Positions 54,284-60,515 of a stretch of DNA of 60,782 bases are shown one piece after another (positions within the stretch are counted from its first letter, which is position 1; every line of letters begins with the position of its first letter). The stretch comes from an uncultured Pseudomonadota bacterium (GTDB lineage: Bacteria; Bdellovibrionota_B; Oligoflexia; Oligoflexales; CAIYRB01). The DNA lies in contig CAIWTN010000141.1 of NCBI GenBank assembly GCA_903915625.1, positions 1-60,782 of the forward strand, read 5' to 3'. The notes under the pieces were generated by a model that was not told the origin of the DNA, made no database searches, and saw only the letters and a list, made by a program, of their open reading frames with translations. Both the position numbers and the translations under genes were made by a program.

Positions 54284-56785
54284 ATGCCCATTTTTAAAAA
54301 CATACATAAAAGCGCCGTCAAGCTGATAGGCCTGACCGCTTGCGTGAGTGTTGCCGTAGGGCTGCAGATCGCCATATTTACTGGGTTTCTTAACCGACCG
54401 GGAGCCACCGGATTCAACACCATTACGGCTGTATGCATCACACTAATTTCACTATTCACGAGTGGCACCATCATTGGGGCCATCACCGCAATTATCGACC
54501 CCATACCAGCGCGACTACTAAGCATCGTCTGCTCCCAAGCGCTGGCCGTGATGGCTGCTTCGACCTCAGCCCAACATGTGGGCCAAATAAATAGCAGCTT
54601 TCATTTCTGGATCATGCTCACCATGAACCTGTTATTTAGCTATGGGCTAACAACGATCATCACCACCTATTTAAAAATAGATGAACAGTTGAAGTTATCC
54701 CTTCGGATCGGAGTCCCGTCAATCATAGCAATCGGCGGCGTCATAGGCCTGCTTGGGCGTAGCTGGTTATCCTTGGAAATTCTGACTCAAAACCTGGCAA
54801 TTATCCGTGACTTCGCCTTACTAGGTGCGCCAGTAGTATTGTTGCTTGGCCTCAGCCCTCTAAAAATGCTGCTAAAAAATCCACGGCAATGGTGGGATTT
54901 ATTAATACTAAGAATGCCTATTGGCGCGCAAAACCTAGCTGCTCAGCACACCTTAAAGCTTTGCGCTGCGGGCTTATTCATGAACATGTTTTTACGGATC
55001 CTAGGAAAGGTCGCCCTGAATCCCGCTGCTGATGACATGCTGAATACAGCCTTAGAAGCTGTATCCCTTGGCTGGATCGGCTGTCTTTACGCCAGTTTCT
55101 CAAACGTCACCTCACTGACCTACGAGCAGCAACAAAGCCAAATGACAGCTAAACTTGCGACGTTTTCGGCACGACGCTTTCTCCGTCGGCACGCCGACGA
55201 CAGCCAGCACTGGGCAGCCATAGTTGGACTTAAAACCACCAATTATGTCATCGACCATGATGCCGAGAGCAAATTATATGCCTCGCTCCCCGCCTCCATT
55301 TTGCAAATTCGCAGTGAAGAGATTCAACGCTGCGTCAACGATGTACTTGGTCCGCTTAATCTACATAACCAGGCATCTTCGCATCGCGTAGCTGGTGCCA
55401 TTGACCCAGAGAAATCAATCAGACCATGTATAGACACGCTAAAAATGTTTGCCTGTATATATCTAGACGGTGGGCCACTGGTCGAACGACGCTTCAAAGG
55501 CCTAGTATCACTTCTTCCCATCATCGACCCGGATTTAGCGCGCCAGCTTAAGCCGGACTTAGTATCCGCACTAATCAACCGGACTAAGTGGTTCTTTCAC
55601 TTTGATTTTGCCTGGCTCGATCAGCATATGACTTATTCACCGAATGGCATTCGCTATGATGTACAATTGGCCACACTGTCTGATCAGACTCGTTTGGCTA
55701 TGCTCGATTATATGGAAAAAACTGGCGGTATCGGAAACGTTGTTTGGCTGGGACCAGATGCTCGCAATCGGCTGCTTCAGGAAGCTCCTAGCATGGCTCC
55801 CATCATCGAAACGTGCCCAGTTCCCGCTGCTCCGGGAACTAAGGACACAGACGAAATGCTCATGTTCGTCATCAAGTTCGAACAACTGATTCCTAGGCTC
55901 CAGCGGCATTTCGACTTTGAACAGGGTAGACAATCACTGACAGACTTCGATTCTAATCCCGAGAGTACGCGCATCCATCGCATGCTATCGCTGCAACTAA
56001 ATAAATCCACTAAATACAACGAAATCATGCAAGTTCTGGCACAGGTGACTAGTGTCCCTTGGCGAGGGTTTAAAGAAAAAGACACAGCCCTTCAACTCAT
56101 CTTAGCTACCCACGACCGCCTTTCAAAACTCCTGACTCCAGGAGGGTTACTGAGTGATTCATCGAACCCCTCGGCCAGTGACGCACAGAAAAAGCTTCTC
56201 CATGCCGTGCGCGCCATCGGTTACCCGAGCCAGATATTACACCACTCACAGCTAAACAAAATAGCATTACGATATCTTGACAAATTGATCTCAGTAGCCT
56301 CAAATCCAGAGAGCAGCCGGTTTCAAGAAGCCTGGTTGCTACTTTCCACGGCTGATTACCAACGTTTCAGCGCGGAACAACGGGCACAGATATTAAAATT
56401 CCTGATTCAAGCTTCTGAGGATCCGCGCATTAACCGACTACCTATCACGCAGCGTAAAGCGGTAGATGCCCTGGCAGGCATGGGTTCTATAGCTAGTCGT
56501 GAAGAGCGAGCTGGGATCATCACTGGATTAGGGAAGTTCTATGACTGGTTCATCGATCTCTCTATTGATACTGATTTGTTATGCCTATTACTAGATGCTC
56601 ATTTGTTTTTGGAAACAAAATTAAAAGCAAAAATCGACCTGCCGGACTCGACTAAGCGCGAGTTTCAAAGTCGCCTTGGCAGCATCACATTACGCATTGG
56701 CTCACAGCATCATCAAGTGACTGCTCTCCAAAGCCGTTGGCAAGAACTACAAGACATCACGACCAGCTCGAAGCTTAGCGCTTAG
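54284..56785 (+). CDS. large membrane protein of unknown function
   Basis: Unrecognised 833-aa protein. The first 300 residues contain about six to eight hydrophobic helices (for example AVKLIGLTACVSVAVGLQIAI and FWIMLTMNLLFSYGL). The remaining 530 residues are soluble and mostly helical, without a known catalytic motif by eye. It starts 28 bases after the histidine kinase stop, so the two are probably cotranscribed and may form a signalling pair. Its stop is eight bases from the stop of the convergent HtrA-like gene. Confidence 0.7.
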   Translation: MPIFKNIHKSAVKLIGLTACVSVAVGLQIAIFTGFLNRPGATGFNTITAVCITLISLFTSGTIIGAITAIIDPIPARLLSIVCSQALAVMAASTSAQHVGQINSSFHFWIMLTMNLLFSYGLTTIITTYLKIDEQLKLSLRIGVPSIIAIGGVIGLLGRSWLSLEILTQNLAIIRDFALLGAPVVLLLGLSPLKMLLKNPRQWWDLLILRMPIGAQNLAAQHTLKLCAAGLFMNMFLRILGKVALNPAADDMLNTALEAVSLGWIGCLYASFSNVTSLTYEQQQSQMTAKLATFSARRFLRRHADDSQHWAAIVGLKTTNYVIDHDAESKLYASLPASILQIRSEEIQRCVNDVLGPLNLHNQASSHRVAGAIDPEKSIRPCIDTLKMFACIYLDGGPLVERRFKGLVSLLPIIDPDLARQLKPDLVSALINRTKWFFHFDFAWLDQHMTYSPNGIRYDVQLATLSDQTRLAMLDYMEKTGGIGNVVWLGPDARNRLLQEAPSMAPIIETCPVPAAPGTKDTDEMLMFVIKFEQLIPRLQRHFDFEQGRQSLTDFDSNPESTRIHRMLSLQLNKSTKYNEIMQVLAQVTSVPWRGFKEKDTALQLILATHDRLSKLLTPGGLLSDSSNPSASDAQKKLLHAVRAIGYPSQILHHSQLNKIALRYLDKLISVASNPESSRFQEAWLLLSTADYQRFSAEQRAQILKFLIQASEDPRINRLPITQRKAVDALAGMGSIASREERAGIITGLGKFYDWFIDLSIDTDLLCLLLDAHLFLETKLKAKIDLPDSTKREFQSRLGSITLRIGSQHHQVTALQSRWQELQDITTSSKLSA

Positions 56786-56793
56786 TCTAGCTC

Positions 56794-58305
56794 CTAAGGC
56801 GTAAAAAATGATGCTGGCGATTTGATTTCGTAAGTCTTCGCGATGCGGCTATGAGCCGCATTTAAGTTCTGATGGTCAATGATCACCTCATCCCCCTCGG
56901 GCCCCAACTTAATTCGACTATACGGGACGCCATCGGAGATGACCGGAGATTTCAATAGTGCGCGCAGACTGGCGATAGAGGTCACCTCTTTGCCGTTGAC
57001 TGTAGCGACTCGCTTGTGACGAATGTCGGAATAGCCACGATTCATCGGATCAGCGAGTACGCGGCTGATAAATACAATTCGCTGCGAACCATCGACTGTA
57101 GGTCGATTTTGACTATTAAATAAGTAAAGCAGGTCAATGGGCGCGATATCGCGCCAGTCTTTGCCCCACTGTCGCAAGTAATCCTGCGACAACTCCTGAA
57201 ACACGAACCCACCAAAAATTAGATGTGGTTCTGCTTGATCGTAGCGATAAGCAAACACTGGTGACTTATTAGAATCGAATCGGGTCAAATTCACTACGAG
57301 GCTTAATTCGCGCCCCTGCCGAAGTATCTTCAGACGCAGAGCATCGCCCCCAAAATGCTGGTTCAGAAGCAAGCGCAGGGGAACTTTACCCCAAAGTGGA
57401 TGACTGACGTAGCCCTGGTCACTCACCGGCTGATCATCTATGGACAGAATGACGTCATCGATCTGGAGCTTGCCCTCACCAGTACTAGCACCACTAATAC
57501 TAGCACCAACACTGGCGGCATCGCCGGCAAATACGTCTGCTACTCGCACACCTTGCTCGCCCTCTCCTGCGTGCAGCATCCGCCTTAGATCGGGTGATGT
57601 TAAAGGCGCTAACTCTACACCAAGTGCAGGAAACCCACGGTAATTTTGGTCATGACGATCATTTAAAAAATGCTTGATCATACTGACAGGGATGGCACGG
57701 AGGAAGTTCTGGTCCTGCCCCGTAGTTAAAGCAACCAGCTTACCATTTGCTAAAATAGGCTCAGCCCAACCAAGACCGGTTTGCTGGACTTTGAGATTAT
57801 AAGACATCATGGTGTAGGCACTTGTGGCAGCCATGACTACCCCAACCTCCTGCACAGTACCCGGAACGTAGCTCAACTGATAAGCATCACGAACTTTATA
57901 AATATCAACGTGAGCATCCAGGGGCAGGTCTTCCCCCAATGGGAGCGGCTTCATACCGAGCAAGACCTTCGGCAACACAGGTCGCACTAAGGCTAAATCA
58001 GCTTCATAATCGACAAAAATTAATTCAGCCTCATCTCGATGCGACGAGCCAAAACGCTGAATCTCCAGAAAAGCCGCATCGGCGACAGCGTAGGCGGTCG
58101 TCAGTAATTCCCCGGCTGGCAAGACTACTGCCAAAAACGCCTGCTGGGTTACGTCCTCGTTCTGCCATGGTGCACTATGGTCTACTTCGCGTTTAGTGAC
58201 CAGTAGACGGACCACTTGATCCTCGAGTCTACTGCGTACCGCAGCTTCGCTGACAGGCGCAATCCATGCATTCAGGCACAGAAAGAATGCGATAAAAAAT
58301 TTCAT
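56794..58305 (-). CDS. catalytically dead HtrA-like paralogue with PDZ region
   Basis: A 503-aa exported protein with the same layout as its upstream neighbour: signal peptide, trypsin-like domain, PDZ region (GKLQIDDVILSIDDQPV) and a C-terminal domain (HLIFGGFVFQELSQDYLRQWG). The catalytic His is replaced by Tyr72 (TTAYAVADA where the active copy has TNAHVVANA), and the catalytic Ser by Trp180 (GLGWAEP for GNSGGP). Asp103 is kept. It therefore looks like a pseudoprotease, perhaps a regulator or adaptor. Its ATG overlaps the stop of the active gene (ATGA), so translation is coupled. Confidence 0.85.
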   Translation of the reverse strand: MKFFIAFFLCLNAWIAPVSEAAVRSRLEDQVVRLLVTKREVDHSAPWQNEDVTQQAFLAVVLPAGELLTTAYAVADAAFLEIQRFGSSHRDEAELIFVDYEADLALVRPVLPKVLLGMKPLPLGEDLPLDAHVDIYKVRDAYQLSYVPGTVQEVGVVMAATSAYTMMSYNLKVQQTGLGWAEPILANGKLVALTTGQDQNFLRAIPVSMIKHFLNDRHDQNYRGFPALGVELAPLTSPDLRRMLHAGEGEQGVRVADVFAGDAASVGASISGASTGEGKLQIDDVILSIDDQPVSDQGYVSHPLWGKVPLRLLLNQHFGGDALRLKILRQGRELSLVVNLTRFDSNKSPVFAYRYDQAEPHLIFGGFVFQELSQDYLRQWGKDWRDIAPIDLLYLFNSQNRPTVDGSQRIVFISRVLADPMNRGYSDIRHKRVATVNGKEVTSIASLRALLKSPVISDGVPYSRIKLGPEGDEVIIDHQNLNAAHSRIAKTYEIKSPASFFTP

Positions 58306-59834
58306 GAGCGCTCCTTAGCCGGCGCAAGTGGCTGCTCATCAGCAGCCGTCAACCACCGGTCAGGTGCGATACCGTACTTCTTGTTGATCAGATTATTTCT
58401 AGCCTTAACTTGAGGCCTCGATAATACCAAAGGATCCTGGCTCCCCATAAAACCGATCACCGCATATTCAGATGCTCCCCCTTCCAAGGAGGAGATAAGA
58501 TCAGAGATACTCCCTACCCTCTTCCCGTCTACCGCCTTGACCACACGAAACATGTTACCGGTGGCATAGGCGTTAACGGCATCCGGCAGGCGCTTGACAA
58601 GAACGATAATATCTTGATTTTTAGCGTATTCTGGATCGTATGAAGCGAAACTGTCGAGATAACGCAGCGCCAGCGGTGCGTCCCGGTACCATTTATCACC
58701 CCACGTGCGCAGCAAATTCCGCGACAGCACCGTAAACACCAGACCGCCATAAACAAAATAGCGAGGGTGACGAGCATAGATATTACCAGTCACGTGATGC
58801 TCACGCGCTGGCAAAACCGCCACCGTTACGTCACGCCTCAGGCCGTCGCGTAGGACTGTGAAACGGCACTGATCACCGATCAATTTCAGATCGAAAATAA
58901 CGCGAAAGTCGACTCTTTCACCGCTAAAATTAACTTTGCCATCAACGCCGACTGATTGTCCGTCGATAGCGAGAATGATATCGCCAGACTGCAGCAGCCC
59001 AGCCGTTGGCGCCCAGAGATCGACGTGAGCAATTTTAATGCCACCGTCGCCATGCTTTAACCTATAAAAGGCGGCAGTCGATGGGTTTAATATGGCCCAA
59101 TCAGTCACCGTTAGCCCATCATCTGGATGGCCTTGGTAATGCCCGTCCTCTACATCGCGCAAAAATCGCGAAATCACCGGTGTCGGAATGATATAGCCTG
59201 TGTTCTCGGCTTGTGCATAACTCTGAAAGGCAACACCCACCACCTGATTGCCCTGTACCACCGGCCCGCCGCTATTCCCAGGATTGATGGCCGAGTCAAC
59301 CTGCACAAGCAAATGCTGAGCGCTGCCGTGATGCACGTAACGCCGATAGCTCACTCGCGACACTACACCATCGGTGACCGAAAGTTGCTCACCACCCAGC
59401 GGAAAGCCGATGGTAGAGACAGGAGTTCGCAGCCGCGGCAATGTGCCAAAAGTAAGTGCTGACAATTCGGCGAGTGCCTTTTTGCCTGCCTCATCTTGGG
59501 GCTCCAGGATCGCTAAATCTGCGTCATGTGCAATATGCCGGATCACAGCAGGCATGGGAGTACTGTCCCCATCACGCTGGATCGTAATGAAGGAAGCATT
59601 AGCTACCACGTGGGCGTTCGTTAGGATCCGACCATCGCCAATGTAAAAGCCGGTTCCAGAGCCTTGCGAGGAGAGCATGCGCTTCCACGGCTCAATCAAG
59701 CTGGGCTCGTCCGACATCACTTGAATCTTGAACACGGATGCCCGCAGCGCCGTTAGGCTAAGCGCCCAAAGTGGAGTCGACCACGAGCTGGCCATTAACA
59801 GCCCGCAGACTAAGAGCAGCCGAAATTCTGCCAT
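58302..59834 (-). CDS. HtrA/Deg-type serine protease with PDZ region
   Basis: A 510-aa exported protease. The triad is intact: His75 (LTNAHVVAN), Asp106 (HDADLAIL) and Ser188 (NPGNSGGP). A PDZ region follows (GLLQSGDIILAIDGQSV), then a C-terminal domain with YFVYGGLVFTVLSRNLL, which I recall from the plant Deg9/Deg10-like branch rather than DegP. It starts three bases after the stop of the MBL-fold hydrolase gene and overlaps the pseudoprotease gene by four bases, forming one operon. Confidence 0.88.
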   Translation of the reverse strand: MAEFRLLLVCGLLMASSWSTPLWALSLTALRASVFKIQVMSDEPSLIEPWKRMLSSQGSGTGFYIGDGRILTNAHVVANASFITIQRDGDSTPMPAVIRHIAHDADLAILEPQDEAGKKALAELSALTFGTLPRLRTPVSTIGFPLGGEQLSVTDGVVSRVSYRRYVHHGSAQHLLVQVDSAINPGNSGGPVVQGNQVVGVAFQSYAQAENTGYIIPTPVISRFLRDVEDGHYQGHPDDGLTVTDWAILNPSTAAFYRLKHGDGGIKIAHVDLWAPTAGLLQSGDIILAIDGQSVGVDGKVNFSGERVDFRVIFDLKLIGDQCRFTVLRDGLRRDVTVAVLPAREHHVTGNIYARHPRYFVYGGLVFTVLSRNLLRTWGDKWYRDAPLALRYLDSFASYDPEYAKNQDIIVLVKRLPDAVNAYATGNMFRVVKAVDGKRVGSISDLISSLEGGASEYAVIGFMGSQDPLVLSRPQVKARNNLINKKYGIAPDRWLTAADEQPLAPAKERS

Positions 59835-59837
59835 GCG

Positions 59838-60515
59838 TCAGCCACCACGTAATTGCCGCCAAGCGGCGAGGGATGAAGCTTGCAAATAGGGATTTTGGGC
59901 CTTGACTACTGCCATGCTGGCATGTGGAGCGGAGTCGTAATTATGCCCCGGATAAAGCACGGTCTGCGGTGGTAATTTGGCTAATTTATTGGTCAGGCTG
60001 TCATAGAGTTGTTCGACATTTCCACCGGGAAGGTCGACGCGACCACAACCACCGATGAATAACGTATCCCCAGAGATCAGTTTGTCTTCACACAGAAAAC
60101 ACTGACTGCCAGGAGTATGCCCCGGGGTGTGGATCAAGGTGATATCAACCCCACCAACCTTAACTTTATCGCCGCTTTGGCAGGATTTTATGTCACTACG
60201 ACTGACGCCGGTCATTTTAACGATGCCATCGATCTCGTCAGCCTGAGCATAAACCGGTACGTGTTTTGAGGCGAGGAGTTCGGCAATGCCCTGAATATCA
60301 TGGCCCCAAACGTGACCACCGCAGTGATCGGGGTGATAGTGAGTGACGAGCGCGCCCGTAATCTTCATGTCGTCCGCAGCGGCGGCGGCTTCAATCGCGG
60401 CAATGTCCCACGCCGGATCGACCACTAGACACTCGCGCGTGCTTTTTGAACCAATGAGATAGGCGAAGTTCGCCATCGGGCCGACAAGGATTTGTTTTAG
60501 GTATAAGTCCGTCAT
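59838..60515 (-). CDS. MBL-fold hydrolase (glyoxalase II-like)
   Basis: A 225-aa metallo-beta-lactamase-fold enzyme. The metal ligands are visible: THYHPDHCGG, HTPGHTPGS, GDTLFIGGCGRVD and the final YPGHNY. This fits glyoxalase II or the persulfide dioxygenase group (thiolester or glutathione persulfide substrates); GCGRVDLPGG leans to the latter type but does not decide. It is the first gene of the operon with the HtrA pair. No clear ribosome binding site precedes the ATG. Confidence 0.85.
   Translation of the reverse strand: MTDLYLKQILVGPMANFAYLIGSKSTRECLVVDPAWDIAAIEAAAAADDMKITGALVTHYHPDHCGGHVWGHDIQGIAELLASKHVPVYAQADEIDGIVKMTGVSRSDIKSCQSGDKVKVGGVDITLIHTPGHTPGSQCFLCEDKLISGDTLFIGGCGRVDLPGGNVEQLYDSLTNKLAKLPPQTVLYPGHNYDSAPHASMAVVKAQNPYLQASSLAAWRQLRGG

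Follow-up and report, generated by a model that had tools for sequence, protein, structure and literature searches.

The window analysed here, a stretch of 60,782 nucleotides, is one contig (60.8 kb) of an assembly that comprises 252 contigs and 4.4 Mb. Among public records the nearest is a metagenome assembly from Lake Pavin (LacPavin), in which the dead protein described below has a 95% identical counterpart. Two genes on the minus strand encode HtrA-like proteins that a previous sequence-only reading had presented as paralogues overlapping by ATGA, one with an intact catalytic triad and the other with His to Tyr and Ser to Trp changes. Both points were borne out: the overlap lies at 58302-58305, the proteins share 26% identity over nearly their full length (E 1e-34), and the triad His75-Asp106-Ser188 of the active copy aligns with Tyr72-Asp103-Trp180 of the dead one. 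The features of the locus are listed in the order of transcription.

59838..60515, minus strand: metallo-beta-lactamase-fold hydrolase, 3 bases upstream of the pair (Pfam and neighbour comparison)
58302..59834, minus strand: active HtrA (DEG2/DEG9-like, S1C), 510 aa, with signal-like N-terminus, Trypsin_2, PDZ and PDZ_3
59610..59612, minus strand: catalytic His75 of the active copy, within LTNAHVV (alignment)
59517..59519, minus strand: catalytic Asp106 of the active copy (alignment)
59271..59273, minus strand: catalytic Ser188 of the active copy, within GNSGGP (alignment)
58563..58592, minus strand: active-copy segment RLPDAVNAYA, which has lost the GY motif and matches VLADPMNRGY of the dead copy (motif in 0/25 active copies)
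58359..58784, minus strand: PDZ_3 domain of the active copy, residues 351-492 (Pfam)
58311..58315, minus strand: AGGAG, Shine-Dalgarno-like, within the 3' end of the active gene and 5 nt ahead of the dead-gene ATG (sequence)
58302..58305, minus strand: ATGA overlap of the dead-gene start codon with the active-gene stop codon, TGA (sequence; junctions of relatives)
56794..58305, minus strand: dead HtrA paralogue (pseudoprotease), 503 aa, with signal-like N-terminus, degenerate trypsin-fold domain, PDZ and PDZ_3
58090..58092, minus strand: Tyr72 of the dead copy, in place of the catalytic His (alignment)
57997..57999, minus strand: Asp103 of the dead copy, kept here and Asn in most relatives (alignment)
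57766..57768, minus strand: Trp180 of the dead copy, within LGWAEP, in place of the catalytic Ser; the GNSGG loop has also been replaced (alignment)
57031..57060, minus strand: PDZ_3 motif VLADPMNRGY kept in the dead copy (motif counts in homologues)
56809..57249, minus strand: PDZ_3 domain of the dead copy, residues 353-499 (Pfam)

The metallo-beta-lactamase-fold gene is probably co-transcribed with the pair, but it is not an obligatory part of the system, since the upstream neighbours differ in other lineages. Neighbour comparison revealed no larger conserved operon around the two genes, and the pair itself is therefore the unit. No Rfam elements were found in the window. On the opposite strand, and convergent with the pair, an 833-aa protein (54284-56785, plus strand) has an N-terminal part rich in hydrophobic segments; it gave no Pfam match above the cut-off and is conserved in about 12 related loci.

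An intact protease and its degenerate paralogue

The active copy gave Pfam matches to Trypsin_2 (2.8e-24) and PDZ_3 (8.1e-23), its best PDB matches were DEG2 and DEG9 (2e-65), and its AlphaFold model (mean pLDDT 66) found DEG9 (5il9) as the best structural match, with an E value of 2.9e-36. The Trypsin_2 domain with its His-Asp-Ser triad and GNSGG sequence identifies it as an S1C DEG2/DEG9-like protein, and the C-terminus, a PDZ followed by a PDZ_3 domain, has the DEG2/DEG9 fold. The gene is thus predicted to encode a working protease, probably periplasmic. By inspection of the sequence, both window proteins start with a hydrophobic segment resembling a signal peptide; both are therefore probably exported, presumably to the periplasm.

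The dead copy also had DEG2/DEG9 as its best PDB matches and a strong PDZ_3 match (5.9e-28), and its Trypsin_2 match was only 0.0049, below the cut-off. The sequence-only reading had proposed that the fold was kept apart from the two triad changes. The part concerning the fold stood: the dead-family and active-family profiles aligned over 469 columns with 100% probability, and the dead protease domain alone matched the DEG9 protease domain in the PDB (E 1.3e-16), indicating that the trypsin-like fold, PDZ and PDZ_3 are retained (profile comparison only). The AlphaFold model of this protein was poor (pLDDT 36, from a four-row alignment), and conservation of the fold consequently rests on the profile methods. 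The extent of the changes, however, had been underestimated, as 39 positions that scarcely vary among active copies are variable in the dead ones; most lie near the active site, and the oxyanion-hole loop is among them. An N-terminal Pro-Trp is invariant in active and dead copies alike. Lacking the triad (Tyr-Asp-Trp), the dead copy is a permanently inactive homologue of the S1C DEG2/DEG9-like proteases and not itself a peptidase. Some residues are conserved in dead copies only, HPxWG of the first PDZ being an example.

Distribution and origin of the gene pair

Phylum sampling covered the groups reachable from the loci retrieved. Across the window's whole GTDB phylum, PDZ_3 proteins were present in 26 of 58 genomes, always as an active plus a dead copy and never singly, and they were absent from the other order(s) sampled in that phylum. 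In all cases inspected the genes were either neighbours or placed at contig ends in a way that fits adjacency, and their order was invariant, active then dead. Junctions were mostly 4-nt overlaps, and most had purine-rich stretches resembling the AGGAG of the window; the exceptions within the order were pairs that overlap by 1 nt (L057), abut (L059) or lie 22 nt apart (L056), the junction of L055 being ATGA if a downstream ATG is taken as the start. An apparent active-dead fusion in one genome (G039 contig C1018; L065:6790-8826, 678 aa; compare L064) was rejected as a contig-end misassembly, the contig end lacking 116 nt found in a second contig and terminating in an inverted repeat.

Outside the phylum, Leptospira interrogans (L070) has an active copy and, 14 nt further on, a dead one whose triad positions read Ser-Asn-Phe. 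The family also occurred in 16 of 45 genomes of the phylum to which a genome titled Goldiibacteriota belongs, and 5 of these 16 had an active-then-dead pair, all five with an ATGA junction and with the catalytic Ser changed to Asp, His, Gln, Gln or Tyr in the dead copy; the remaining inspected genomes had single active copies. Single active copies were likewise all that was found in the Campylobacterota (4 of 200 genomes). Two single DEG2/9-like copies, L110 (G290 C62) and L113 (G287 C217), had the catalytic Asp replaced by Glu, giving His-Glu-Ser. None of the 31 complete dead copies from the three groups had an intact triad. The expectation that relatives would show the same pair with the same substitutions was therefore correct as to the pair and the loss of the triad but not as to the replacing residues, which vary (Y, N, S, F, D, K, E or A for His; W, N, G, K, L, P or D for Ser). 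The persistence of pair, gene order and coupling across the whole order and two other, distant groups indicates that the arrangement is not due to chance.

In the maximum-likelihood tree, the dead copies of the window's order formed one group with the Leptospira dead copy (100/99), and the active copies one group with the Leptospira active copy (99/95). A separate Leptospira duplication was rejected (AU p 0.007), indicating from the sequences that both pairs share the same origin. The dead copies of the Goldiibacteriota phylum grouped instead with their own active copies (100/99), which points to a probable second, independent duplication. A single origin for all dead copies was not rejected (AU p 0.06), so that two origins are likely but not proven, and placements within the dead group are unsure because many dead branches are long.

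Selection and reciprocal loss between domains

Three pairs of close relatives gave dN/dS values of 0.078, 0.126 and 0.158 for the dead copy and 0.094, 0.123 and 0.206 for the active copy; for the window's dead copy against its nearest relative the value was 0.08. The dead protein is therefore under strongly purifying selection. The loss of the triad and an in-frame stop near a contig end in one relative (G023) could be taken as signs of a decaying pseudogene; such decay was rejected, and we give it almost no credence, since frames are open wherever the contig is complete, dN/dS is low (0.08-0.16), PDZ_3 is conserved as much as in the active copy and the gene is retained across the order and Leptospira. 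These data suggest that the dead copy is a working partner and not a decaying leftover.

Among active copies, mean pairwise identity was 0.59 in the protease domain, 0.40 in the first PDZ and 0.343 in PDZ_3; the corresponding values among dead copies were 0.29, 0.32 and 0.340. In the dead copy, constraint has moved between domains. We then considered ancestral columns, defined by their conservation in 14 homologues that occur as single copies. Of these columns, 35 in the protease domain were lost only in dead copies and none only in active copies, whereas in PDZ_3 one was lost only in dead copies and three only in active ones (Fisher p 4e-4, with few PDZ_3 columns and with columns that are not fully independent).

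The loss in PDZ_3 was clearest for the motif VLx6G[YF], present in 25 of 26 dead copies of the order and in 0 of 25 active ones, and likewise in the dead but not the active copy of Leptospira. The motif was also found in both plant proteins, DEG2 and DEG9 (2/2), and in all 7 single copies of the Goldiibacteriota phylum; single copies of the Campylobacterota kept its Gly but missed the aromatic residue (0/5). From this distribution, VLx6GY appears to be an ancestral PDZ_3 motif, lost by the active copies and retained by the dead ones. The pairs of the Goldiibacteriota phylum kept GY in both copies, and their five active members (L105-L109) all had a one-residue insertion directly after it, absent from single and dead copies. 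Such a reciprocal partition of features is the pattern that would be expected of mutually dependent subunits, and it constitutes the main new evidence.

Possible roles of the inactive partner

Most characterised HtrA proteases are homo-trimers or multiples thereof. It is the protease domains that form the HtrA trimer (PMC3640471); in plant Deg7 a degenerate protease domain mediates trimerisation (PMC4754418), and MamO, a dead HtrA, is needed for proteolysis by MamE, its own active site not being required (PMC4794232). On the strength of these precedents we favour, with reasonable though not high confidence, the reading that the pair encodes one two-subunit, probably periplasmic HtrA of the DEG2/DEG9 (PDZ_3) type, most likely as mixed or joined trimers, in which the dead subunit would set the number of active sites and supply the PDZ_3 function. 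An ancestral gene would have been duplicated in tandem, the first copy keeping the catalytic triad and letting part of PDZ_3 go, and the second giving up catalysis and keeping PDZ_3. ATGA coupling would let a single message give rise to both proteins at the same site, where they would come together, the likeliest forms being mixed trimers of protease domains or trimers joined to one another. The dead subunit could then limit the number of active sites in the assembly, and its PDZ_3 surface could assemble, position or regulate the active subunit. Strict co-occurrence, coupling and reciprocal motif loss, all read from sequence, support a functional two-subunit protease. Here we infer each of three things: the cell compartment, the physical association and the direction of regulation. 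Earlier, coupling had also been taken to suggest a fixed ratio of the two proteins; translational coupling does indicate co-production, but co-production is no proof of a fixed ratio.

Coupling and co-occurrence are compatible with functional dependency of any kind, oligomeric or not, and the main alternative is that the dead protein acts in trans, outside the active oligomer, as a separate PDZ adaptor, chaperone or activator that, for example, delivers substrates or activating peptides. MamO offers a model, as it activates MamE noncatalytically and no physical interaction between the two was detected (PMC4794232). PDZ_3 is, moreover, the best conserved part of the dead copy, and its protease domain is loosely constrained and evolves fast, so that the trimer surface may be gone. 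We nevertheless consider an adaptor of this kind the less likely reading, because a trypsin-fold domain, superfluous in a bare PDZ adaptor, is still present in every complete dead copy, because dead and active copies have equally low dN/dS between close relatives, and because conserved ATGA coupling is more typical of subunits. Still less probable, in our view, is that the dead copy has acquired a new function of its own, such as binding a ligand, a metal or an envelope component, and is merely co-expressed with the protease. Magnetosome pseudoproteases have been repurposed for metal binding (PMC4794232), and the residues conserved only in dead copies, HPxWG among them, would suit such a function; against it, the two genes always occurred together in the 26 genomes, and certain PDZ_3 residues retained by the dead copy are gone from its active partner.

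The two-subunit protease that we favour has relatives among known systems, none of them identical to it. Arabidopsis DEG2 and DEG9 (clade II Deg, protease-PDZ-PDZ; PDB 4fln and 5il9), the best sequence matches of both window proteins and the best structural match of the active one, have the same domain order and share the PDZ_3 GY motif with the dead copy, but their structures and descriptions are of single active proteins that form homo-oligomers, without a coupled dead partner, and they belong to plant compartments, whereas the window pair would act in a bacterial envelope. MamE and MamO of magnetotactic bacteria (PMC4794232) are, as here, an active and a dead HtrA from one gene region. MamO, however, has a TauE-like transporter domain and metal binding, neither of which was found in the window pair (by Pfam the dead copy has PDZ domains only and no TauE-like domain), and the window copies are of PDZ_3 type with overlapping genes. 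Plant Deg7 (PMC3473262, PMC4754418) also combines an active and a degenerate protease half, which arose by duplication and have PDZ domains; its halves are fused in one polypeptide of about 1100 aa, whereas the window encodes two coupled DEG2/DEG9-type proteins in separate ORFs. Arabidopsis Deg5/Deg8 (PMC4754418) is a hetero-hexamer of HtrA subunits at about 1:1, but with a catalytic triad in both.

A further close precedent is in Leptospira, where an in silico study reported two operons, LIC20143/LIC20144 and LIC11112/LIC11111, of active and then 'PDZ-only' HtrA genes, with an ATGA overlap in LIC11112/LIC11111, and proposed a heterodimer (PMC7709667). In our tree each member of the chromosome II pair, of the LIC20143/LIC20144 type, groups with its counterpart in the window. 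LIC20144 was published as a protein without a protease domain; in our analysis the chromosome II dead copy of this type (L070:7404-8987) aligns to the dead family near full length and is therefore a full-length pseudoprotease. The components and the precedents are already known; in the literature searched we found no description of PDZ_3-type live-plus-dead pairs as a conserved system, of their distribution or of the reciprocal motif loss. As a broader hypothesis, which we advance tentatively and with slightly more doubt than belief, the pair would represent an obligate hetero-oligomeric bacterial HtrA with catalysis in one subunit and PDZ_3-based assembly or regulation in a coupled dead subunit, a split counterpart of the fused plant Deg7 that arose at least twice among PDZ_3-type HtrAs, once in the window's order together with Leptospira and once in the Goldiibacteriota phylum.

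If true, a widely kept dead subunit would provide a natural system for the control of an ATP-independent oligomeric protease by a pseudoenzyme, in which the reciprocal motif loss singles out specific residues. The 'PDZ-only' LIC20144 of Leptospira would be reinterpreted as a full-length pseudoprotease partner. The recurrence of active-plus-dead pairs, in MamE/MamO, in Deg7 and, probably twice, in the system described here, suggests a general evolutionary route for HtrA complexes.
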